Below are positions 9,607 through 21,516 of a stretch of DNA of 26,227 nt, piece after piece. Below the pieces are notes generated by a model, which saw only the letters and a list, made by a program, of their open reading frames with translations, searched no databases and had not been told where the DNA came from. Each line of letters starts with the position of its first letter. Within the stretch, counting starts at the first letter, position 1. Origin of the DNA: a virus. The stretch is taken from positions 1 to 26,227 of IMG/VR virus record IMGVR_UViG_3300025669_001289; one strand, 5' to 3'. Both the position numbers and the translations under genes were made by a program.

Positions 9607-9635
9607 TTGACAAACTGGTAAAAATGTGTTATAAT
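9607..9635 (+). promoter_or_regulatory. consensus sigma70-type promoter for the endonuclease island
   Basis: TTGACA (9607-9612), 17-bp spacer, TATAAT (9630-9635). Transcription would begin near 9642, a few bases before the first pairing arm of the structured leader at 9649. Boxes and spacer match the duplicated promoters at 232-260 and 755-783, although the surrounding sequence differs. Confidence 0.85.
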
Positions 9636-9648
9636 ATAAATATTAAAA

Positions 9649-9742
9649 AGTGGGAATAGGGATGTACACCTGATAAGATGAGTTTTCCTGAACTTGTCTT
9701 TCCCACTAATTTTTAAATCAGGATTAAATCTACAGGAGGATT
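9649..9742 (+). promoter_or_regulatory. structured RNA leader of homing endonuclease 1
   Basis: AGTGGGAA (9649-9656) pairs with TTCCCACT (9700-9707) as a closing stem. Inside it are a short AGG..CCT hairpin, a TGATAAG linker and a longer stem, AAGATGAGTT/AACTTGTCTT, with loop TTCCTG. After the closing stem, AATC (9727-9730) pairs with GATT (9739-9742) and leaves the Shine-Dalgarno AGGAG in the loop. Leaders before 11827 and 13292 have the same plan. Confidence 0.65.
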
Positions 9743-9746
9743 GCAT

Positions 9747-11270
9747 ATGTTTGATATAAATAAAATAAGTAAAAGAAATAGGTATGATTTAAAAAAGTCT
9801 TTAAAGACTTATGTTGGTATTGAGGGTATTGATTATGTAGAATGCAAGATTTGCAAGAAGAGGAGTCTAAGTATAGATAAGAGACACCTCAAATCTTGGC
9901 ATAGTTTAACACTTGAAGAATACAAAATAGAGTTTCCTAATGCATGTATAGTTTCGGATAAAAAGAAAGAAATTCAAACTAAGTCAGCTATTGGAAATAA
10001 GTCTTGGCTAGGTAAAAAACTTTCTGATGAACATAAAGCTAAGTTGTCAGAATCTAAGAAAGGTAGTAAGAATCCATTTTATGGCAAGACACATAATAAA
10101 GAAACTACAGATAAAGCTTTAGTTACAAGAGTAAATACTGTATTAAAGAAATATGGTGTGAGTAATGTAATTCATATGCAGGAAGTTAAAGACAAGCTTT
10201 ATAAGATTAGAGCATATGATATAACATATATAAGAAATAAAATTGAATCAGTAAAAGGTTATAAACTTTTATCTAAAAATTATAAGAATATATATGGTAA
10301 ATTAAAAATAGAATGTCCTAACGGACACAAATTTAAAATGAGATATAATAATTTTCAATCGGGTCAAAGATGCCCAATGTGCTCAAATCATCACTCAAAG
10401 CCGGAATTAGAAATTTACAAAATTGTTAAATCCTATTTTAAAGATACAATCTCAGGTGACAGAAAAATACTGAGTGGTTTGGAACTTGATATATATGTAC
10501 CATCAAAGAAAGTGGCTTTTGAGTACTGTGGGTTATATTGGCATTCTGAGCAACAAGGTAAAGATAGAAATTATCATGTAAACAAACTCAATGAATGTAA
10601 AGAACAGGGTATTGATTTAATTACTATTTTTGAAGATGAGTATATAAATAGACAGGATGTAGTAATTTCGAGAATAAAAAACAAACTTGGTGTATCAGAT
10701 GCTGAAAGAGTATTTGCAAGAAAGTGTAAAATAAAAGAAATAGATCCTAAAACTAAAAATGTATTTTTAAATAAGTTCCATCTTCAAGGTGGGGATAGAT
10801 CAAGTATAAAACTTGGTGCATTTTATAATGACAAATTAGTATCAGTTATGACATTTTCAAAACCATCAATTGCTAAAGGGTTGAAGAATACTAAAGATAC
10901 TTATGAATTAAACAGATTTTGCTCAGACTCTAATTATATAGTTGTAGGTATTGCTTCTAAGTTGTTTAAGCATTTTGTCAGAAACTATGAATTTAATACT
11001 TGTTTTTCGTTTGGGGATAAACGGTGGAGTAATGGTGATGTATATAAAAAGTTAGGGTTTGAATTTGGGTATTGTACTAAACCTAATTATTGGTATATAA
11101 TTGATGGATGCAGAAAGCATAGATATAATTACAGAAAATCAGAGTTAAGTAAAAAGCTCGGCGTGTTTGATTCTAATCTTACTGAATATCAGAATATGTT
11201 AAATAATGGATTAGATCGAATATGGGATTGTGGATCTATAAAATGGGAATATAAGAAAGGAAGTTATTAA
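9747..11270 (+). CDS. EDxHD/Vsr-like homing endonuclease
   Basis: ATG at 9747 lies seven bases after AGGAGG (9734-9739); a TTG at 9741 would be too close. The 507-residue protein is modular. It has a MucR-like zinc finger (C33, C36, H47, H52, then LTLEEYKIEFP). A NUMOD3-type DNA-binding segment (GKKLSDEHKAKLSESKKG) follows. Next is a zinc ribbon (CPNGH...GQRCPMC), then a nuclease core with LELDIYVPSKKVAFEYCGLYWHSE and a following histidine, as in I-Bth0305I-type EDxHD enzymes. The C-terminal domain (YELNRFCSD..., GDKRWSNGDVYKKLGF, YNYRKSELSKKLG, RIWDCGSIKW) is common in such phage proteins. It would cut uninserted relatives of this locus. The zinc ribbon also occurs in the HNH proteins downstream. 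Confidence 0.85.
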   Translation: MFDINKISKRNRYDLKKSLKTYVGIEGIDYVECKICKKRSLSIDKRHLKSWHSLTLEEYKIEFPNACIVSDKKKEIQTKSAIGNKSWLGKKLSDEHKAKLSESKKGSKNPFYGKTHNKETTDKALVTRVNTVLKKYGVSNVIHMQEVKDKLYKIRAYDITYIRNKIESVKGYKLLSKNYKNIYGKLKIECPNGHKFKMRYNNFQSGQRCPMCSNHHSKPELEIYKIVKSYFKDTISGDRKILSGLELDIYVPSKKVAFEYCGLYWHSEQQGKDRNYHVNKLNECKEQGIDLITIFEDEYINRQDVVISRIKNKLGVSDAERVFARKCKIKEIDPKTKNVFLNKFHLQGGDRSSIKLGAFYNDKLVSVMTFSKPSIAKGLKNTKDTYELNRFCSDSNYIVVGIASKLFKHFVRNYEFNTCFSFGDKRWSNGDVYKKLGFEFGYCTKPNYWYIIDGCRKHRYNYRKSELSKKLGVFDSNLTEYQNMLNNGLDRIWDCGSIKWEYKKGSY

Positions 11271-11271
11271 T

Positions 11272-11382
11272 ATGCCAAACAGGGATGGTAAAGGCCCGAG
11301 AGATAGAAGTCGAAGGAAAGTGGGCAGAGGTTTAGGGAATTGCAAGAAAGCCAAAGTAAATAAAAATAAAAAGAAAAAATAA
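11272..11382 (+). CDS. DUF5320-like mini protein (36 aa)
   Basis: A 36-codon gene starting two bases after the endonuclease stop, with AAAGGAAG upstream. The product begins MPNRDGKGPRDRSRRKVGRG and continues LGNC, which follows the MPxxDGxGPxxxxxxTGRGxGxC pattern of DUF5320 proteins found in many anaerobes and phages. A lysine-rich tail follows. The function of that family is not known. The glycine/arginine content suggests a flexible nucleic-acid or particle-associated peptide. Given how well the N-terminal pattern fits, I consider it a real gene despite its size. Confidence 0.6.
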   Translation: MPNRDGKGPRDRSRRKVGRGLGNCKKAKVNKNKKKK

Positions 11383-11430
11383 AAGTGTACCTCGTGGGCA
11401 GTACAGGTTAAGCCCTTACCCGACATAGAG

Positions 11431-11448
11431 GGGGTAGTTTTCTACCCC
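11431..11448 (+). other. perfect hairpin before the 11476 gene
   Basis: GGGGTAG, loop TTTT, CTACCCC: seven perfect pairs, mostly G-C at the base. Only a weak TTCT follows, so it is either an inefficient terminator or a structural element in the leader (11383-11475) of the next gene. It is not the same design as the endonuclease leaders. Confidence 0.5.
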
Positions 11449-11475
11449 TTCTAACTTCAAGGATGTGATCTAAAA

Positions 11476-11715
11476 TTGTTATCCAATAAAACCAAAGATG
11501 GAAGTCTTGTATGGCCCAACACAACCGATGATATGGAAGACCTTGAGGAATGGAAACATGGTCAAACAGTGTATGGATCTTTTGCCAAACTCCATTCTGG
11601 GTTTAAGAATTATAGAGATGATATAAATAGAGCTTGGGGAAAAGAAAACGATTACAAGAAAAATACTTTATATGTAGATACGTTAAAATTAGTATCTGAG
11701 CAATTGAAACGATAA
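11476..11715 (+). CDS. hypothetical phage protein (79 aa, TTG start)
   Basis: The only available start is TTG at 11476, twelve bases after AAGGA (11459-11463); the frame is closed by TAA at 11452-11454. The product is acidic at the N-terminus (NTTDDMEDLEEW) and has an aromatic middle (HGQTVYGSFAKLHSGFKNY) and a helical end (YVDTLKLVSEQLKR). I do not recognise it. Its last residues (SEQLKR) resemble the very end of the HNH protein downstream (ISEQLK), which may be chance. It sits between two homing endonucleases and may be a native head-module gene flanked by insertions. Confidence 0.55.
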   Translation: MLSNKTKDGSLVWPNTTDDMEDLEEWKHGQTVYGSFAKLHSGFKNYRDDINRAWGKENDYKKNTLYVDTLKLVSEQLKR

Positions 11716-11734
11716 AAGCTAAAAGTGTAAATTC

Positions 11735-11822
11735 ATGTGGATAGAGTAGCTCTCGAAAAGAAGATTTCCTCATCTTCCTGCCACATTTTAAAAATTGAGG
11801 GCTAAATCATTGAGGAGTGATT
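11735..11822 (+). promoter_or_regulatory. structured RNA leader of homing endonuclease 2
   Basis: ATGTGG (11735-11740) pairs with CCACAT (11781-11786). Inside are the hairpin AGAG-TAG-CTCT, a CGAAAAG linker and GAAGAT-TTCCTC-ATCTTC. Downstream, AATCA (11805-11809) pairs with TGATT (11818-11822), placing GAGGAG in the loop just before the ATG at 11827. Confidence 0.65.
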
Positions 11823-11826
11823 ATAT

Positions 11827-12729
11827 ATGAGTAGGAAGAAATTACCATACAAAGATATAAAATATAGAATTGAATCTGTTGATGGTTATAAGTTATTAAG
11901 TACTGAATATACAGGTGCTCTTTCAAAACTTAAATTTATGTGTCCTGAAGGCCATATATTTTGGATGACTTGGAATAATTTTCAACGAGGGCAAAGATGT
12001 GCTGAATGTTATAGATTATCATTATGTTTAGATATTAATTATATAAAAGAACAAACGTCAATACTCGCCTTAGGTTATAAACTTATAAGTACTAAATATA
12101 TAAATAATAATGTTAAAATGAAATTTATATGCAATAAAGATCATACATTTAAAATGAGGTGGGCACATTTTCAACAAGGACGAAGATGTCCTGAATGTTA
12201 TAGATTATCACAATGTTTAGGTATTAAAGATTTACAAGAGCAAATCACAATAATTGCTTCAAGTTATAAATTATTGAGTACTAAATATGTAAATAATAAT
12301 ACTAAAATGGAATTTATGTGTGATAAAGGGCATACATTTTGGATGCGTTGGGGTGATTTTCAATTTGGTCAGAGATGCCCTGAATGCTATTATGAGTCTA
12401 AATGGAGAAGTTATACACCAGAAGAATTAGCTGAGTTACATAATTATAGAGCAGTAATAATTAAACTATCAGAGCAAAAATATAAAGGATACTATTATAA
12501 AATAAACCCAAATAGATTAAAACGTAGTAGATATGATTATCATCTTGATCATATTTATTCAATAACTGATGGGTTTAAAAATAGTATCCCCATGAAAGTA
12601 ATATCCAATCCTTACAATTTACAGATGCTCTGGTGGTCAGATAATATTTCTAAGTATGGTAATTCATGGCAAAGTAAAGAAGATTTATATAAAGGATATA
12701 TAAGATATATCAGTGAACAATTAAAATAA
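11827..12729 (+). CDS. HNH homing endonuclease with three zinc ribbons
   Basis: A 300-residue protein built from three tandem ~60-residue repeats and a C-terminal nuclease. Each repeat has the phrase GYKLLSTEY (or close), then C-x3-H-x14-C-x2-C. In the first the ligands are C39, H43, C58 and C61; the others follow at about 102-124 and 165-187. The HNH domain has YHLDHIYSITDGF (H239, D241, H242), SNPYNLQ and a final asparagine/lysine segment (DNISK). The ribbons would recognise DNA and the HNH would nick or cut it. It is closely similar to the protein at 13292 and shares one ribbon type with the nuclease at 9747. A free-standing homing endonuclease is the best reading. Confidence 0.87.
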   Translation: MSRKKLPYKDIKYRIESVDGYKLLSTEYTGALSKLKFMCPEGHIFWMTWNNFQRGQRCAECYRLSLCLDINYIKEQTSILALGYKLISTKYINNNVKMKFICNKDHTFKMRWAHFQQGRRCPECYRLSQCLGIKDLQEQITIIASSYKLLSTKYVNNNTKMEFMCDKGHTFWMRWGDFQFGQRCPECYYESKWRSYTPEELAELHNYRAVIIKLSEQKYKGYYYKINPNRLKRSRYDYHLDHIYSITDGFKNSIPMKVISNPYNLQMLWWSDNISKYGNSWQSKEDLYKGYIRYISEQLK

Positions 12730-12741
12730 AAGGAATAAAAA

Positions 12742-13191
12742 ATGGAAATATGTAAAATATGTGGCAAGGAATATACTAAAGTTAATGTACAGCATTTAAA
12801 AACTCACGACACAGATCAAGAAACTTATGACAAACTACCGGAATTTGTCCCAAAAAGAGTTACAATAACAGAAAAAGAAAAGAAAGAGGAAATTTTTGGG
12901 AAACCATTAGAGTCTATTGAAAAGCCATTAGAAGTATTCTTACATGAGTTTGGAATAACTGAAAAAGAATTACGGGAATTGGTTCGGTCTTATAAAACCG
13001 GAAATGCAATTGACGTAGTGCAGGATATAGAAAGAAAACAAAAAGCTGGGGAAAGACATGCAGAGCAACTGAAAGATGATGATATAGTTGAAACATCAAA
13101 ACTTTCAATTGCCGAAGTATTGGTAAAGAAATATGGGTTTACAGTGACTGCTGTTACTAAAAACCCTAAAATTTGGAAGTTAAAAAAATAA
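12742..13191 (+). CDS. C2H2/MucR-like zinc-finger phage protein (149 aa)
   Basis: AAAGGAAT precedes the ATG. The N-terminus carries a C2H2 finger: C4, C7, H18, H22 (CKICGKEYTKVNVQHLKTH), similar to MucR/Ros-type fingers and to the first domain of the nuclease at 9747. A charged helical middle (EKKEEIFGKPLESIEKPL...FGITEKELRELVRSY) and a small C-terminal alpha/beta end (VLVKKYGFTVTAVTKNPKIWKLK) follow. No nuclease motif is present, and it lacks the structured leader of the endonucleases, so it is probably a resident phage gene rather than part of a mobile unit. The function is unknown; DNA binding is likely. Confidence 0.65.
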   Translation: MEICKICGKEYTKVNVQHLKTHDTDQETYDKLPEFVPKRVTITEKEKKEEIFGKPLESIEKPLEVFLHEFGITEKELRELVRSYKTGNAIDVVQDIERKQKAGERHAEQLKDDDIVETSKLSIAEVLVKKYGFTVTAVTKNPKIWKLKK

Positions 13192-13199
13192 TTAAGTTT

Positions 13200-13289
13200 A
13201 TGTGGATAGGTTGGCCGCCGAAAAGAGGGACTCTCTTACTCTCCTTCCACATTTTAAATAACAAGAGTTAAATCATTAAGAGGTGATTT
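13200..13289 (+). promoter_or_regulatory. structured RNA leader of homing endonuclease 3
   Basis: ATGTGGA (13200-13206) pairs with TCCACAT (13246-13252). The interior has a short GG..CC hairpin, the same CGAAAAG linker as leader 2 and a less perfect second stem. Then AAATCA (13270-13275) pairs with TGATTT (13284-13289), with AAGAGG in the loop, right before the ATG at 13292. Confidence 0.65.
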
Positions 13290-13291
13290 GT

Positions 13292-14236
13292 ATGAGAAAA
13301 TTGTTATATGATGATGTAAAGAAACAGATTGAATCTGTTAATGGCTATAAATTGATAAGTACTGAGTATAAAAATTCACATGCTAAATTAAAAATTAAAT
13401 GTCCAAATAATCATGAGTATAAAGTAAATTTAGCAAATTTTAAATCAGGCAAAAGATGTCCTATATGTGCTTATAAAAATAAAGGTCGTTCACAAAGATT
13501 ATCTTTAGATTATATAAAAGGTAGGATTAAGATAATAGCATCTGGATATAAATTATTGTCTGTTAGTTATATAAATGCTAAAATTAAACTTAAATTTATG
13601 TGTCCCAAAGGTCATATATTTTGGATGACTTGGGATAATTTTAATAATGGAAGTAGATGCTCAGTATGTCATCGTTTAATATCTGTAAAGCGTCTTAAAG
13701 ATACAACATTAACTATAAAATACATTAGAGATAATGTTAAAATAATAGCTCCTACGTATAAGTTATTATCCACTAAATATGTTAATAATAATACTAAGTT
13801 GAAATTTATATGTCCTAAAGGTCATATATTTTATATGACTTGGGCTAATTTTCAAAGTGGTCAGAGATGTCCTTTATGTGGTGTAGAGAGTAGATCAGGA
13901 ATTAATCATTACAAGTGGAAAGATTATACAAATAAGGAATTACAAAGTTTTAAATATTATAAAGAATTTATAATGAGTGAATCTAATAGAAACTTTGGAA
14001 AGTATTATTATAAAATAAATAAAAATAGTTTAATAAGAAGTAAATATGAATATCATCTTGATCATATATACTCAATAATGGAAGGGTTTAGAAATAATAT
14101 ACCTCCTGAAGTATTATATAATCCCAATAACTTACAAATGATGTGGTGGAAAGATAATATAATAAAACAAGCTAAGTCAGGATGTACAAAAATAAAATTA
14201 TATTTAGGATATTATAAATATAAATTAGAAAATTAA
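13292..14236 (+). CDS. HNH homing endonuclease with three zinc ribbons (paralogue)
   Basis: The ORF extends to 13283, but ATG 13292 is correctly placed after AGAGG and matches the start context of its paralogue. The 314-residue protein has three ribbons: KCPNNH...GKRCPIC, MCPKGH...SRCSVC and ICPKGH...QRCPLC. The HNH domain follows (YHLDHIYSIMEGF, YNPNNLQMMWW, KDNI). Similarity to the 11827 gene is visible in DNA too, for example around the repeated phrase encoding GHIFWMTW, so the two arose by duplication or exchange recombination. It also shares the leader design. The following gene starts 16 bases after its stop with its own SD. Confidence 0.87.
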   Translation: MRKLLYDDVKKQIESVNGYKLISTEYKNSHAKLKIKCPNNHEYKVNLANFKSGKRCPICAYKNKGRSQRLSLDYIKGRIKIIASGYKLLSVSYINAKIKLKFMCPKGHIFWMTWDNFNNGSRCSVCHRLISVKRLKDTTLTIKYIRDNVKIIAPTYKLLSTKYVNNNTKLKFICPKGHIFYMTWANFQSGQRCPLCGVESRSGINHYKWKDYTNKELQSFKYYKEFIMSESNRNFGKYYYKINKNSLIRSKYEYHLDHIYSIMEGFRNNIPPEVLYNPNNLQMMWWKDNIIKQAKSGCTKIKLYLGYYKYKLEN

Positions 14237-16593: not shown

Positions 16594-18084
16594 ATGGATG
16601 AGAAATTCTATTTGGACGAAGAATGTGTAGTTAGTGCAAGTTTCGGAGAAATTGGTTGGTTTTTGCAGCACTATCAAAGTCGTATGAGATTTTTTGCAAA
16701 AGAAGTTTTTAAAGATAGAAAGATGATTATATTTACTGATATACAGAATTCAGTATTTCTTGATGATTTTGTATACGCTACTATAACATTACCAAAATGG
16801 TTCTATGATTTAAATCTCGATAGAGATTGTTATGAAGCAGTTGAAGTAGGATCTCATGGGGGTTCTTTAACACCACCAAAAGTGTATGCCGGGTTAATAG
16901 AATATATGAAACAATTCTATAATTCTGAAAAGGCTATAGAAATATTTCCACCTAGAGGTTATAATAAAGCTTGGGAGCATCAACCACAAATATTCTGTCA
17001 ATTTGAAACTGATAAACTTGAATTAAATAGACCTGTCATAGTTGTATTTCCTAGAGCAAAAGATAGAACTATTAATAGAAATGTACCAGAGTTTGTATGG
17101 TATGAGTTAGTTGAAAAATTAAAACAAAAAGTTGATGTAGTATTGGCCGGTATTCCAAATGGGGCTTGTTTGCAGGATTATGAAAGTGAAGGAGTTATAA
17201 ATTTAATAAAATATGATAAGCCAGATAAGACTAATAGAGTTATAACTTATTTAAACAATTGCTTATGTTCAATCTCAAGTCAGAGTGGTGGAACACATAT
17301 AAGTTTATTGTCAGGTGCAAATTCTTATATAATAGGGCATGAAAAAGAAAGACACACAGTAACTGAAAACAGATTAAATGTACCAACAAGTTTTAGGTTT
17401 GTATCAGACTATCGGGCCATAGATTCAGATACTATACTTTTAGATGTAGAAGAATTTTTAAATAGGTTAGAGGGTGCTGGTTATTTTCAAGTAGAGGTTG
17501 TAGATAGAAATAGACCGTCTTTAGGCGCATTAAGAGATAAAAAAGATTTGATTGGTGCTGAAATTGGTGTTTTTGAAGGACTTAATGCTTTAAGGATGCT
17601 GGAATCTTTAGATATTAAAAAGTTGTATTTAATTGATCCTTATAGTGACGCAGATTCTTTTGTAATAGAGAGAGATGTAGACAATGTAGAGAAATCTTGT
17701 AAGGATAGATTAAAAGACTTTGATAGTAAGATTGTTTGGATTAGAAAGAAAGCCGAAGATGCAATAGAGGATATAGTAGATGAGTTAGATTTTATAAATG
17801 TTGATGGTGATCATAGGTATGAAACAGTTAAGAAAGAAACAGCATTATATTATCCAAAATTAAAAGATAATGGATTAATGTCATTCCATGATTTTGATGC
17901 CCCTGATGAGAAAAATGGGGTTGTACAAGCAGTAACAGAATATTTTCAGAAATTAAATATTCCAATCTATAGTCAGATTTGTCCAGATGATCCAAGGACA
18001 AGAGAAGGTTGGATTTTTAAAATATCAAATAAAACTTATGATGGTATAATTAATAATTCTATAAATACTCTAAAGACTTTATAA
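16594..18084 (+). CDS. GT9-like glycosyltransferase fused to a SAM methyltransferase
   Basis: Two domains in 496 residues. The first ~300 have a GT-B/GT9-like look: PVIVVFPRAKDRTINRNV as the start of the donor-binding half, VDVVLAGIPN, and ISSQSGGTHISLLSGAN, which corresponds to the donor-site loop DSGxxHLAxxxG of heptosyltransferases. The last ~180 residues are a class I methyltransferase of the Methyltransf_24 type. Motif I is GAEIGVFEGLNA, followed by LYLIDPY and FINVDGDHRYETV. Methylation of a transferred sugar is a plausible combined role. It opens the glycan operon, and its TAA overlaps the ATG of hddC. A heptose acceptor or donor is only an inference from the neighbouring genes. Confidence 0.75.
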   Translation: MDEKFYLDEECVVSASFGEIGWFLQHYQSRMRFFAKEVFKDRKMIIFTDIQNSVFLDDFVYATITLPKWFYDLNLDRDCYEAVEVGSHGGSLTPPKVYAGLIEYMKQFYNSEKAIEIFPPRGYNKAWEHQPQIFCQFETDKLELNRPVIVVFPRAKDRTINRNVPEFVWYELVEKLKQKVDVVLAGIPNGACLQDYESEGVINLIKYDKPDKTNRVITYLNNCLCSISSQSGGTHISLLSGANSYIIGHEKERHTVTENRLNVPTSFRFVSDYRAIDSDTILLDVEEFLNRLEGAGYFQVEVVDRNRPSLGALRDKKDLIGAEIGVFEGLNALRMLESLDIKKLYLIDPYSDADSFVIERDVDNVEKSCKDRLKDFDSKIVWIRKKAEDAIEDIVDELDFINVDGDHRYETVKKETALYYPKLKDNGLMSFHDFDAPDEKNGVVQAVTEYFQKLNIPIYSQICPDDPRTREGWIFKISNKTYDGIINNSINTLKTL

Positions 18085-18785
18085 TGCAAGTAGTTATATT
18101 AGCTGGTGGTTTAAGTACACGATTAGGAAATATAACAAAAACTATTCCTAAATCTATGGTATTATTTAATAATAAGCCTTTTATAGAATATCAAATAGAA
18201 GAATTAATTTTAAATGGTGTAACTGATATAATTATATGTGTTGGATTTCTCAGTAAAAAAATAATTAATTATTTTGAAAATTCTAAATATAAAAAATTCA
18301 TAAAATTTAGTTATGATGGGAAACAGCAGCTAGGAACTTTTGGGGCAATTACAAATGCTAAATCTATACTTAATGATTTCTTTTTTGTAATGTATGGAGA
18401 TTCTTTTTTAAGAATTAACTATAAAAAAATGTATTTACAATTTATACATTCTCCTACAACATTAATGTTATCTGTATATAGAAATAATAATAAGATAGAT
18501 AAAAGTAATATTGATTATAAAGATGGTAGAATTTTTGATTATAACAAAAATAATAATAATTTTCAATATATAGATTACGGTGCTTTCTTAATAGATAAAT
18601 CTTTAATAGATAAATATTGTTTATTTAGAAATCATGAAGATGTTTTTAGAGAAAATGTATATAATAAAGATATATTAGGGTACGAAGTATTTGATAGATT
18701 TTATCAAATTGGATCTATTGACGGTATCAATGAATTTAAAAAATATATAGGTAAACACTATGATAGTAACACAAACACCCTTTAG
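18084..18785 (+). CDS. hddC: sugar-1-phosphate nucleotidyltransferase, probable heptose-1-P guanylyltransferase
   Basis: The 233-residue protein has the nucleotidyltransferase signature LAGGLSTRL (6-14), PKSM (22-25), the LGTFGAI strand-loop (83-89) and the metal-binding YGDSF (104-108). Sequence alone fits several sugar nucleotidyltransferases (mannose-1-P, glucose-1-P and heptose-1-P types). Directly downstream genes encode heptose 7-phosphate kinase, heptose bisphosphatase and sedoheptulose 7-phosphate isomerase. In Aneurinibacillus, Campylobacter and Yersinia the HddC/HddA/GmhB/GmhA set makes GDP-D-glycero-alpha-D-manno-heptose, so HddC is the natural call. GGLSTRL departs slightly from the usual GGxGTRL. 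It overlaps the upstream stop (TAATG) and the next gene by 26 bases. Confidence 0.78.
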   Translation: MQVVILAGGLSTRLGNITKTIPKSMVLFNNKPFIEYQIEELILNGVTDIIICVGFLSKKIINYFENSKYKKFIKFSYDGKQQLGTFGAITNAKSILNDFFFVMYGDSFLRINYKKMYLQFIHSPTTLMLSVYRNNNKIDKSNIDYKDGRIFDYNKNNNNFQYIDYGAFLIDKSLIDKYCLFRNHEDVFRENVYNKDILGYEVFDRFYQIGSIDGINEFKKYIGKHYDSNTNTL

Positions 18786-19737
18786 AATTACTCTTGGGGG
18801 AGGTGGAACTGATTTAAGACCTTATTATTCTAAACATGGTGGTATTATTGTATCAGTAGCTATTAATAAATTTATGTATATTTTTCTTAATACACCTTTT
18901 GATAAAAAAATAAGAATAAAGTATTCAAAATCAGAAGTAGTAGATAAAGTTGAAGAGTTAGAACACAAATATGCCGGTGCACTATTAAACTATGTTGGTA
19001 TAAAAGAGTCTATTGATGTTGTTTCTCTTGCAGATATTCCGGCAGGTACTGGATTAGGTTCTTCTAGTTGTTATGCAGTCGGTATGCTAAATGGTTTATA
19101 TACTTTAAAGAATAATGTTATCAATTTAAAAGAGTTAGCAGAGAAAGTCTGTAATTTAGAAATGAATATAATGAATTTGCCTGTTGGTAAACAAGATCAG
19201 TATATGGCAACTTTTGGGGGATTAACACATTTAGATATAAATAATAATGGTGAGGTTATAATAAATAAACTTAATATTTCAGAAGATAATAAGAAAACTT
19301 TAAACAGGAATTTAATATTATTATATACTAATACTGTTAGGGATTCTAATATTATTCTAAAAGAACAATCTGAAAATATAGAGAGTAATAATAAAATAGT
19401 TAATATGCATTGTATAAAAGATATTGGGTATAAGATTTTGGATGCAATAAATACTAGTAATTTTGATGATATAGGTATACTTTTTGATGAACACTGGAAT
19501 TTTAAAAAGAAAATGTCTACTAAAATGACTAATCCCTTATTTGATAAACTGTATAATATAGCTACTAAGAATGGGGCATTGGGTGGTAAAATATCTGGTG
19601 CTGGTGGTGGTGGCTTCTTTCTTTTTTATGTACCAACAAAACATGAAGAGTTTATAAATCATATGACTAATTTAGGATTAAGGCATATAGATTATAAATT
19701 TGAATCATTTGGTACAAAGGTGATAACTAATGCATAA
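18760..19737 (+). CDS. hddA: D-glycero-alpha-D-manno-heptose 7-phosphate kinase
   Basis: GHMP-family kinase of 325 residues. It has the N-terminal RITLGGGGTDL typical of HddA-like kinases (GGGGTDL at 13-19), the ATP loop PAGTGLGSSS (94-103), GKQDQY (143-148) and the C-terminal GHMP motif GGKISGAGGGGFF near residue 275. HddA phosphorylates D-glycero-D-manno-heptose 7-phosphate at C1 to the 1,7-bisphosphate. Fucokinase-like relatives share the fold, but the run of heptose genes fixes the assignment. Overlaps of 26 bases upstream and 8 bases downstream indicate tight translational coupling. Confidence 0.85.
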   Translation: MIVTQTPFRITLGGGGTDLRPYYSKHGGIIVSVAINKFMYIFLNTPFDKKIRIKYSKSEVVDKVEELEHKYAGALLNYVGIKESIDVVSLADIPAGTGLGSSSCYAVGMLNGLYTLKNNVINLKELAEKVCNLEMNIMNLPVGKQDQYMATFGGLTHLDINNNGEVIINKLNISEDNKKTLNRNLILLYTNTVRDSNIILKEQSENIESNNKIVNMHCIKDIGYKILDAINTSNFDDIGILFDEHWNFKKKMSTKMTNPLFDKLYNIATKNGALGGKISGAGGGGFFLFYVPTKHEEFINHMTNLGLRHIDYKFESFGTKVITNA

Positions 19738-20227
19738 AGTTATATTTTTTGATAGAGATGGAATTATAAATAAGTTTCGTACAGATACTCCTGTAATTAA
19801 TGATAAGTTTGATTTTATGGATGGTATCAAATCTTTATTTCAAATTTCTAAAACTCTTAATTATTTAAGAATCGTAATTACTAATCAACCAGACATCTCT
19901 CGTCATTTAATATCTCAAAAGGAACTATATAGAGTAAACTATAATTTTTTAAAATATATTGATGATATCTACATTTGCCCACATTCTGATAAAGAAAATT
20001 GTTATTGTAGAAAACCTAAACCCGGCTTATTAGAAATAGCAGCTATAAAGTGGAATATAGATAAAGATAAATCTTATTTTATTGGTGATTCTTGGAAAGA
20101 TATAAAAGCTGGTGAATTATTTGGATGTAAAACTATTTTACTTAATACAGATTATAATAGAAATGAGGAAACAACTCCTGATTATAACATTAACTCATTA
20201 TTTGAAATGAAGGATATTATAGGTTAA
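19730..20227 (+). CDS. gmhB: D-glycero-D-manno-heptose 1,7-bisphosphate 7-phosphatase
   Basis: HAD phosphatase of 165 residues, close to GmhB/histidinol-phosphatase size. Motif I is FFDRDGIIN with nucleophile D8 and acid/base D10. Motif II is ITNQ (50-53), and motif III/IV are K95 (CRKPKPG) and GDSWKD (119-124). The GmhB zinc loop is complete: C83, H85, C91 and C93. It removes the 7-phosphate of the heptose bisphosphate made by HddA, giving the 1-phosphate for HddC. The start overlaps hddA by 8 bases and the gmhA start follows by 3. Confidence 0.9.
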   Translation: MHKVIFFDRDGIINKFRTDTPVINDKFDFMDGIKSLFQISKTLNYLRIVITNQPDISRHLISQKELYRVNYNFLKYIDDIYICPHSDKENCYCRKPKPGLLEIAAIKWNIDKDKSYFIGDSWKDIKAGELFGCKTILLNTDYNRNEETTPDYNINSLFEMKDIIG

Positions 20228-20230
20228 ATT

Positions 20231-20812
20231 ATGTCTTATATGAATGAATATTTTAAAGAAGTAGTAAAAGCATGTAATAATTTAATTGAATCTGAATTAG
20301 ATAATATGATAGATATTATCTATACTATCAAAAAAAATAAAGGTAGATTATTTTTTATTGGTGTTGGTGGTGGAGCTGGAAATTCTTCTCATGCAGTTTG
20401 TGATTTTAGAAAGTTAGTTGGTATAGAATCTTACTCAGTAACTGAGAATATTCCAGAATTAACTGCACGTATAAATGATGAAGGCTGGAATACAGCATTT
20501 TCAGAATCTTTAAAGAGTAGCAATTTGTGTGATAAAGATGGTATATTTGTTTTCTCTGTTGGTGGTGGCTCTATAGAACAAAATGTTAGTGTAAATATTA
20601 TTGAGGCTGCAAAATACGCTAAAAGCGTTAATGCTAAGATACTTGGTATCGTTGGTAGAAGTAAAGGATACATAGCACAAAATTCTGATTCCTGTATAAT
20701 AATAAATTGTGATAATAAATTTATTACACCTATGACAGAATCGTTTCAAACTTTAATATGGCATATGCTTGTTACAAGTCCGAAATTACAATCCTTCAGT
20801 ACAAAATGGTAA
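20231..20812 (+). CDS. gmhA: sedoheptulose 7-phosphate isomerase-like SIS protein
   Basis: SIS-domain protein of 193 residues. It has the sugar-phosphate loop GVGGGAGNSSHA (44-55), the second serine-rich loop SVGGGSIEQN (109-118) and TESFQTLIWH (169-178), with a glutamate and histidine where GmhA places catalytic residues. GmhA converts sedoheptulose 7-phosphate to D-glycero-D-manno-heptose 7-phosphate. The FRKLVGIESY and ELTARINDEGW segments occur in SIS isomerases of surface-glycan clusters and differ from E. coli GmhA, so the exact substrate is set by context. The downstream transaldolase supplies the expected substrate. Confidence 0.8.
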   Translation: MSYMNEYFKEVVKACNNLIESELDNMIDIIYTIKKNKGRLFFIGVGGGAGNSSHAVCDFRKLVGIESYSVTENIPELTARINDEGWNTAFSESLKSSNLCDKDGIFVFSVGGGSIEQNVSVNIIEAAKYAKSVNAKILGIVGRSKGYIAQNSDSCIIINCDNKFITPMTESFQTLIWHMLVTSPKLQSFSTKW

Positions 20813-20823
20813 AGGATAATACT

Positions 20824-21516
20824 ATGACTATTTTTATAGATTCCAGCAATTTAGGAGAAATTAAGAAATATCACAAACTTGGTATTATAAGAGGAGTTAC
20901 AACAAATCCAACAATTCTATTAAAAGAAGGTATAGAAAAACATAAAATTAAAGATCATATCAAGTCTATAGCAGATACAGTTAATCCATATCCTGTTTCT
21001 GCAGAAGTTACTTCAAATGTTTTTGACGATATGATAAAAGAAGCGATAGCAATTTCTAAAATTGCTTCAAATATAAATATTAAAATTCCAATACATGGCC
21101 CAAATGGTGAATTAGAGAATTTAGAAGTAGTAAAGTTATTAACTAAAGAAGGTATATCTATTAATGTAACTGCTATGATGAGTGCACAACAGTGTCTGTT
21201 AGCAGCTCTTAGTGGAGCAGATTATGTATCATTATTTGGCGGCAGAGTAAATAATATGGGATATAATTGTATAGATGAAATTAAAAAAATTAGAGTATTG
21301 CTTGACTCAATACCAGAATTAAATAATACAAAAATAATTATGGGTTCATCAAGAGAAGTTTTAAATATTATCGAGTGGTTGGTGGTTGGTGCAGATATTA
21401 TAACTGTATCACCATCTTTAATTGAAGGTATGCTAGTTCATCCATATAGTAAAGAAACTGTACAAATGTTTATGGAAGATGCTAAAACAATGGGGGGTGC
21501 ATGGATAAATATATAG
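20824..21516 (+). CDS. tal: transaldolase (TalC/FSA-type)
   Basis: The open frame extends back to 20758 inside gmhA, but ATG 20824 follows AAAGGA (20812-20817), which overlaps the gmhA stop, and gives a clean N-terminus (MTIFIDSSNL). The 230-residue product is a small-subunit transaldolase: D6, TTNPT (26-30), Schiff-base lysine K87 in INIKIP, and ADYVSLFGGRVNNMG. It moves a dihydroxyacetone unit between sugar phosphates and can form sedoheptulose 7-phosphate. Cyanophages carry TalC for host carbon flow; here the location among gmhA, gmhB, hddA and hddC suggests precursor supply for heptose instead. The stop overlaps the next gene by 16 bases. Confidence 0.88.
   Translation: MTIFIDSSNLGEIKKYHKLGIIRGVTTNPTILLKEGIEKHKIKDHIKSIADTVNPYPVSAEVTSNVFDDMIKEAIAISKIASNINIKIPIHGPNGELENLEVVKLLTKEGISINVTAMMSAQQCLLAALSGADYVSLFGGRVNNMGYNCIDEIKKIRVLLDSIPELNNTKIIMGSSREVLNIIEWLVVGADIITVSPSLIEGMLVHPYSKETVQMFMEDAKTMGGAWINI

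Follow-up and report, generated by a model that had tools for sequence, protein, structure and literature searches.

Architecture and family identity of the leaders

The window analyzed here is the whole of a 26,227-base virus record (IMGVR_UViG_3300025669_001289; positions are counted on the whole stretch), in which three nuclease genes, starting at positions 9747, 11827 and 13292, come after the genes for terminase, portal and capsid proteins. Directly 5′ of each of these genes lies a folded RNA leader. We propose, with a probability of about 0.7, that the leaders belong to one family of RNAs that control translation in cis, in which the loop of one stem (P3) would alternate between two partners, an element that we call T and a second element, S, at the ribosome site. 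This proposal is built on sequence comparison.

A preliminary description of this DNA had given the leaders (9649–9747, 11734–11827 and 13199–13292) closing stems of 8, 6 and 7 pairs, a short inner hairpin, a GATAAG or GAAAAG linker, a second inner stem and a hairpin with the Shine-Dalgarno (SD) sequence in its loop, and we found every one of these elements in all three. The closing stem (P1) and the two inner stems (P2 and P3) make up a three-way junction with the joining strands UA, GAAAA or GAUAA, and CU. In the first leader (La, 9649–9707, on the plus strand, as are all features located below), P1 pairs 9649–9656 with 9700–9707, P2 pairs 9659–9661 with 9669–9671, the linker GATAAG occupies 9672–9677, and P3 pairs 9677–9684 with 9691–9698, the pairing bases of its loop being 9686–9691. 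Its T element, UCAGGA (9718–9723), is a 6-nt complement of the P3 loop UCCUGA, and the SD-bearing hairpin (P4, 9727–9742) holds both S (CAGGA, 9733–9737) and the SD (AGGAGG, 9734–9739) in its loop. The second leader (Lb, 11735–11786) has P1 at 11735–11740/11781–11786, the linker GAAAAG at 11755–11760 and the P3 loop CCUCA at 11768–11772, followed by a T element complementary to that loop (UGAGG, 11796–11800) and by P4 (11805–11822), with S (UGAGGA, 11811–11816) and the SD in its loop. The corresponding elements of the third leader (Lc, 13200–13252) are P1 at 13200–13206/13246–13252, GAAAAG at 13220–13225, the P3 loop CUCUU at 13233–13237, the complementary T element AAGAG at 13263–13267, and P4 at 13270–13289, again with S (UAAGAG, 13277–13282) and the SD in the loop.

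A descriptor of the form P1, UAG, P2, GAAAAG or GATAAG, P3, P1′ matched exactly three places on the two strands of the 26-kb window, namely the leaders, compared with 0.013 matches on average over 150 dinucleotide-preserving shuffles, a count that is descriptive because the descriptor was written after the leaders had been seen. Single-sequence folding energy was unusual only for La (z = −3.5, with −1.3 for Lb and −0.9 for Lc). Because the energies of the second and third leaders are unremarkable, the case rests on comparison, not on stability.

Comparison with Rfam, which the preliminary description had proposed, showed that the RNA is not new, as Lb and Lc belong to the int-alpA family (RF02996): they match all 71 model positions with 43.9 and 44.3 bits, respectively, against a gathering score of 35.8. 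The same comparison left the first leader unmatched, with no RF02996 match to La even at E values of up to 5. A covariance model of our own, built from 38 relatives that all lie outside the window, scored Lb at 47.9 bits and Lc at 41.2 bits, and ranked La third, with the ends exactly as claimed, at 12.2 bits (E = 0.29). The architecture of La (GGAAUAG...GAUAAG...UUUCC) also occurs in other viral contigs (L438; L451 with L467 and L525; L468 with L534 and L537; L523; and L067). Because La has the same architecture and the same T/S pairing yet falls below an Rfam match, we term it a subclass: judged by its architecture, it is a member of a GAUAAG subclass that Rfam does not list, and not an Rfam member.

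One loop with two alternative partners

Pattern scans of viral contigs and GTDB genomes yielded 297 parsed instances of such leaders, or 207 after dropping those more than 72% alike. The regular expression that picked these relatives itself contained UAG and GAAAAG, so they cannot show whether those letters are conserved; in an independent set of 40 matches that the Rfam model alone had selected in Pseudomonadota genomes, UA was intact in 38, and most had a strand resembling GAAAA. RNAs of the int-alpA type were present in 47 of 299 sampled Pseudomonadota genomes, and relatives were also found in contigs labeled Firmicutes, Spirochaetes, Planctomycetes, Bacteroidetes and Streptomyces. When 38 members were aligned, 96% of the cells at the junction were paired, the covariation score was 0.907 (0.192 after shuffling, and at most 0.19 with slid partners), and 13 of the 15 pairs of the P1-UA-P2-GAAAA-P3-CU junction had changed on both sides. 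The preliminary description had taken varying sequence with preserved pairing as a sign of selection on structure, to be given up if a wider alignment lacked covariation; the covariation found here supports it.

That description had not mentioned that the P3 loop is complementary to two sites between P1 and the start codon. The first, T, starts a median of 7 nt 3′ of P1, and the second, S, which lies 8 nt beyond T, ends a median of 7 nt 5′ of the start codon, on the ribosome site. As a control, loops were exchanged among leaders, which retained their SD-like composition, and T and S were scored in anchored windows. Complementarity of at least 5 nt to the P3 loop was found in 90% of the 207 relatives (21% with swapped loops), and two separate sites of at least 5 nt were found in 59% (3.4% with swapped loops, the highest of 300 swaps reaching 7%). 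Scored by position, matches of at least 5 nt were present at T in 81% of these relatives and at S in 67%, compared with 8% and 14% after swapping, and the same test on the Rfam-only Pseudomonadota set gave 87% versus 29% for T and 72% versus 30% for S. T and S were both present in 149 leaders, 94% of which used overlapping loop bases for the two; the pairings therefore exclude each other. In the window, the T/S elements UCAGGA/CAGGA, UGAGG/UGAGGA and AAGAG/UAAGAG stand against the loops UCCUGA, UCCUCA and CUCUUA of La, Lb and Lc, respectively, which 10, 4 and 0 of 205 foreign loops matched equally well. T and S were also kept in phage records with altered linkers that were retrieved by BLAST, and in Aeromonas phage 4_4512 a partner that is not SD-like (CTACG) still matches the loop. 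Finally, a P4 hairpin of at least 5 pairs flanked S in 78% of the 207 relatives, as opposed to 31% in the control, with covarying arms, which bears out the earlier view that the SD is presented in a conserved hairpin loop. At the level of sequence, then, covariation shows P1, P2, P3, both loop pairings, P4 and the placement of S on the ribosome site.

The two partners differ in ways that bear on what the loop might do. Mean duplex energies were −8.8 kcal/mol for loop:T and −7.8 kcal/mol for loop:S, and at least 4 nt were complementary to 16S rRNA in 87% of S elements and 55% of T elements. One explanation is constitutive repression, in which the P3 loop would be a plain anti-SD strand that keeps the gene low and T would be a by-product, for example a leftover duplication or a ribosome standby site. 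The more SD-like character of S agrees with this idea, as does the precedent of T4-like phages, whose homing endonuclease genes are held down by hairpins that sequester the ribosome-binding site (RBS) (PMC2988022, PMC3014915). We nonetheless judge it unlikely, as T is both better conserved than S (81% versus 67% at 5 nt) and the stronger partner, and T changes along with the loop from leader to leader, which is not expected of a standby site or a leftover.

In the competition that we favor instead, the P3 loop would be a strand complementary to the ribosome site that can pair with only one of two partners at a time, T or its near-copy S, which overlaps the SD. Pairing of the loop with S would create a loop-loop kiss that covers the ribosome site and turns the gene OFF, whereas pairing with T would create a pseudoknot across the ~7-nt linker that frees the ribosome site and turns the gene ON. 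T would thereby serve as a decoy copy of the ribosome-site sequence, one made before S in the course of transcription. Given this head start and the stronger pairing of T, the ON state is expected with loop:T and the OFF state with loop:S. The two energies lie only 1 kcal/mol apart, which fits the expectation for a switch near balance, and such a switch could be tipped by the conserved junction, either through binding something or through folding kinetics. Candidate tipping agents are a ligand or a protein at the junction, folding kinetics, and ribosomes that end on the upstream gene. We infer that both pairings form in the cell, and likewise the direction of the switch and what tips it; the leader is probably a translation switch that serves genes of mobile elements. 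The preliminary description had suggested that the RNA controls these genes, and a cis-translational version of this suggestion is the one that we favor, although the predicted regulatory feature, competition between T and S for the P3 loop, had been missed.

More speculatively, the junction might be the receptor of an unrecognized riboswitch or protein sensor that is spread over several bacterial phyla in phages and islands and sets the time at which genes of mobile elements are translated. Such a novel sensor would cover homing nucleases, replication proteins and regulators, with one loop shifting between decoy and ribosome site. We consider this reading less likely than not.

Several observations weigh against a T/S switch. 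Among the 207 leaders, 37 show T only, 14 show S only and 7 show neither. SD-like composition helps matches to S, as swapped loops reach 14–30%. In one leader (L435, 2501–2640, from Klebsiella phage ST11-VIM1phi8.2) the T match to the P3 loop has decayed to 3 nt while S is kept, which makes this leader a natural test case of T function. As for novelty, we found no description of an int-alpA mechanism in the literature searched, which did not reach as far as the original 2017 description, and part of what we propose may already be reported.

Genes around the leader and their exchange

A perfect sigma70-type promoter (TTGACA-N17-TATAAT, 12 of 12 matches) lies at 9607–9635, placing the predicted transcript start just before La. 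Across the family, 23 of 28 strong promoter matches fell within ~20 nt 5′ of P1, where ~2 were expected, and in 61 other cases P1 began a median of 7 nt after the stop codon of the upstream gene. Two of the five upstream genes tested encode a phage integrase, which fits the family name int-alpA. The strong promoters just 5′ of P1 in a subset of leaders, together with the Rfam type "Gene; sRNA", could be taken to mean that the RNA is a trans-acting small RNA (sRNA) whose gene lies by chance before these genes. This is very improbable, given that the 3′ partner of the loop overlaps the downstream ribosome site, keeps a constant spacing to the start codon (median 7 nt) and is wrapped by P4, and that an open reading frame (ORF) begins a median of 32 nt after P1 in 293 of 297 instances. 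We also considered P1 followed by a U-run as an intrinsic terminator or attenuator, and rejected it because only 14% of leaders have at least 6 T within 9 nt after P1.

The genes downstream of the leader are diverse, with 195 proteins falling into 121 clusters. A random sample of 29 contained 13 homing-type nucleases (HNH, GIY-YIG and other) and 2 replication proteins, the rest being unnamed; other phage or island genes behind such leaders encode replication proteins, Rha, DUF551 and unknown proteins. The leader does stand before homing endonucleases of different classes, as the preliminary description had it, with an EDxHD-like first gene and two HNH-like paralogues in the window; it is not, however, their exclusive marker, since only ~13 of 29 (about 45%) of the sampled genes are of this kind. 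A conserved RNA that adjoins HNH genes might serve the neighboring nuclease as a guide, in the way that omega RNAs serve IscB. Yet many downstream genes are not nucleases at all, the leader also preceding replication proteins, Rha, DUF551 and many unknown proteins; no variable guide segment lies outside its structure, and it extends over the ribosome site. We therefore rejected this possibility, which we regard as scarcely credible.

In the window itself, the gene at 9747–11270 encodes a homing endonuclease with NUMOD3 and an EDxHD-type nuclease (phrog_3339 homing endonuclease, E = 5e-114; similarity to 3r3p, E = 3.7e-4). Most relatives of this gene lack such a leader, and one (L067) is preceded by a leader of the GAUAAG type. 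The second gene (11827–12729) encodes an HNH-type homing endonuclease with repeated CapR-like zinc domains (phrog_559 HNH endonuclease, E = 2e-37) and returned a single locus when used as the query in a wider search. The third (13292–14236), also an HNH-type homing endonuclease, is its paralogue, with 51% identity in alignment A1. A viral contig that encodes a relative of these HNH genes (L009) carries at least two such leaders close together (10951 and 12298).

Other features of the window were noted by eye. A short basic ORF of 36 amino acids (11272–11382; beginning MPNRDGKGPRDRSRRK...) has the look of a DUF5320-type small protein and has no PHROG match. Between the first and second nuclease modules lies a GC-rich hairpin (11428–11452, AGGGGGTAGTTTTCTACCCCT) that resembles a terminator, which the terminator scan did not report. 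Farther downstream, a run of genes (18084–21516) reads as a sugar-nucleotide (heptose-type) pathway, with a nucleotidyltransferase, a GHMP kinase, a HAD phosphatase, a SIS isomerase and a transaldolase-like gene, and is adjoined by glycosyltransferase-like genes up to 24770 and a radical SAM gene; under these names, given by eye only, the run would be unusual phage cargo.

Comparison of loci indicated that genes are exchanged beneath the leader. In 261 of 306 alignments between loci that cover the leader, homology ends at the start codon (within 12 nt). In 42 pairs of loci, ~160–400 nt of upstream DNA and the leader are common and the genes cannot be aligned as DNA, whereas in 9 pairs the leader and gene are common and the upstream DNA differs. 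Among lambdoid phages, six relatives lose their homology to BIS08P22 ~10–17 nt before the BIS08P22 leader; in a seventh, an E. coli prophage, homology extends across the leader as far as the start codon, and the gene that follows is a different one. Because leaders are alike throughout the family, any position inside them could be the true point of crossover. By sequence, leader and gene move together in some cases, and in others the leader remains in place and the gene is swapped; the earlier suggestion that the RNA travels with the gene thus applies to some cases, and exchange beneath a conserved leader was observed more often. This pattern raises the question of whether the leader is mainly a recombination seam, a boundary for gene exchange whose structure is kept because its sequence is shared. 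The abrupt ends of homology and the 42 pairs just described would fit a seam, as would the common leader and different ORFs of an E. coli prophage (L543) and a Salmonella phage (L431). A seam of shared sequence, however, would not need stems, T and S to differ in sequence while their pairing is kept, and we consider this explanation very unlikely.

Upstream DNA and leader are conserved, and the next gene cannot be aligned from its first codons, in one group of loci comprising L208, L229, L230, L236, L278 and L289 and in a second comprising L314, L363, L372, L382, L383 and L414. Both groups are candidate accessory-gene slots that are worth mining for unknown functions. More generally, the leader marks slots where mobile elements exchange accessory genes, and searches for it could lead to homing nucleases and other cargo that are not yet known.

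Comparison with known systems

The RF02996 consensus shares with our leaders the UA/GAAAA/CU junction, the loop CCuU and a conserved AgGG tail. It differs in that the tail is unpaired, that the family is typed as an sRNA gene whereas the leaders have a cis-regulatory position, and that the model has neither the loop:T pseudoknot, nor the alternative loop:S pairing, nor P4. The features that appear to be new are the interpretation as a cis-regulator, the competition of T and S for the loop, P4, the GAUAAG subclass and the breadth of the gene repertoire, and with these we propose a function and a testable mechanism for an orphan RNA family.

The preliminary description had cited T4 as a precedent, and homing endonucleases of T4 and Aeh1 (I-TevI, II, III, segB and mobE) are indeed held down by single RBS-sequestering hairpins; these base-pair with the RBS itself, and a late promoter inside the hairpin bypasses them (PMC2988022, PMC3014915). 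In both cases, phage homing endonuclease genes have a structured RNA at the ribosome site, acting at the same regulatory step. The T4 hairpins nevertheless work differently from what we predict here: the leaders hold the SD in a loop, and a distant loop, which has a decoy copy as its other partner, would compete for it; in the window leaders the SD core lies in the P4 loop and not in the stem of one local hairpin. Promoter matches lie 5′ of P1 and not inside P4, in a scan that covered no phage-specific promoters. We saw no common sequence or junction between the leaders and the T4 and Aeh1 hairpins.

The preQ1 and SAM-II RNAs are translational pseudoknot riboswitches, in which a loop forms a pseudoknot with a 3′ tail that involves the ribosome site and in which an A-rich strand is conserved. 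The leaders are like them in having a predicted loop-to-3′-tail pseudoknot involving the ribosome site and an A-rich conserved strand, and differ from them in having another junction and one loop with two alternative partners, with no known ligand. Riboswitches are also characterized by two mutually exclusive structures that control expression; for the leaders, comparison supports the exclusive pairings, and control of expression is predicted. In its anatomy the leader resembles a translational riboswitch, and one loop with two competing target copies, one of them on the ribosome site, would make a compact design for a switch.

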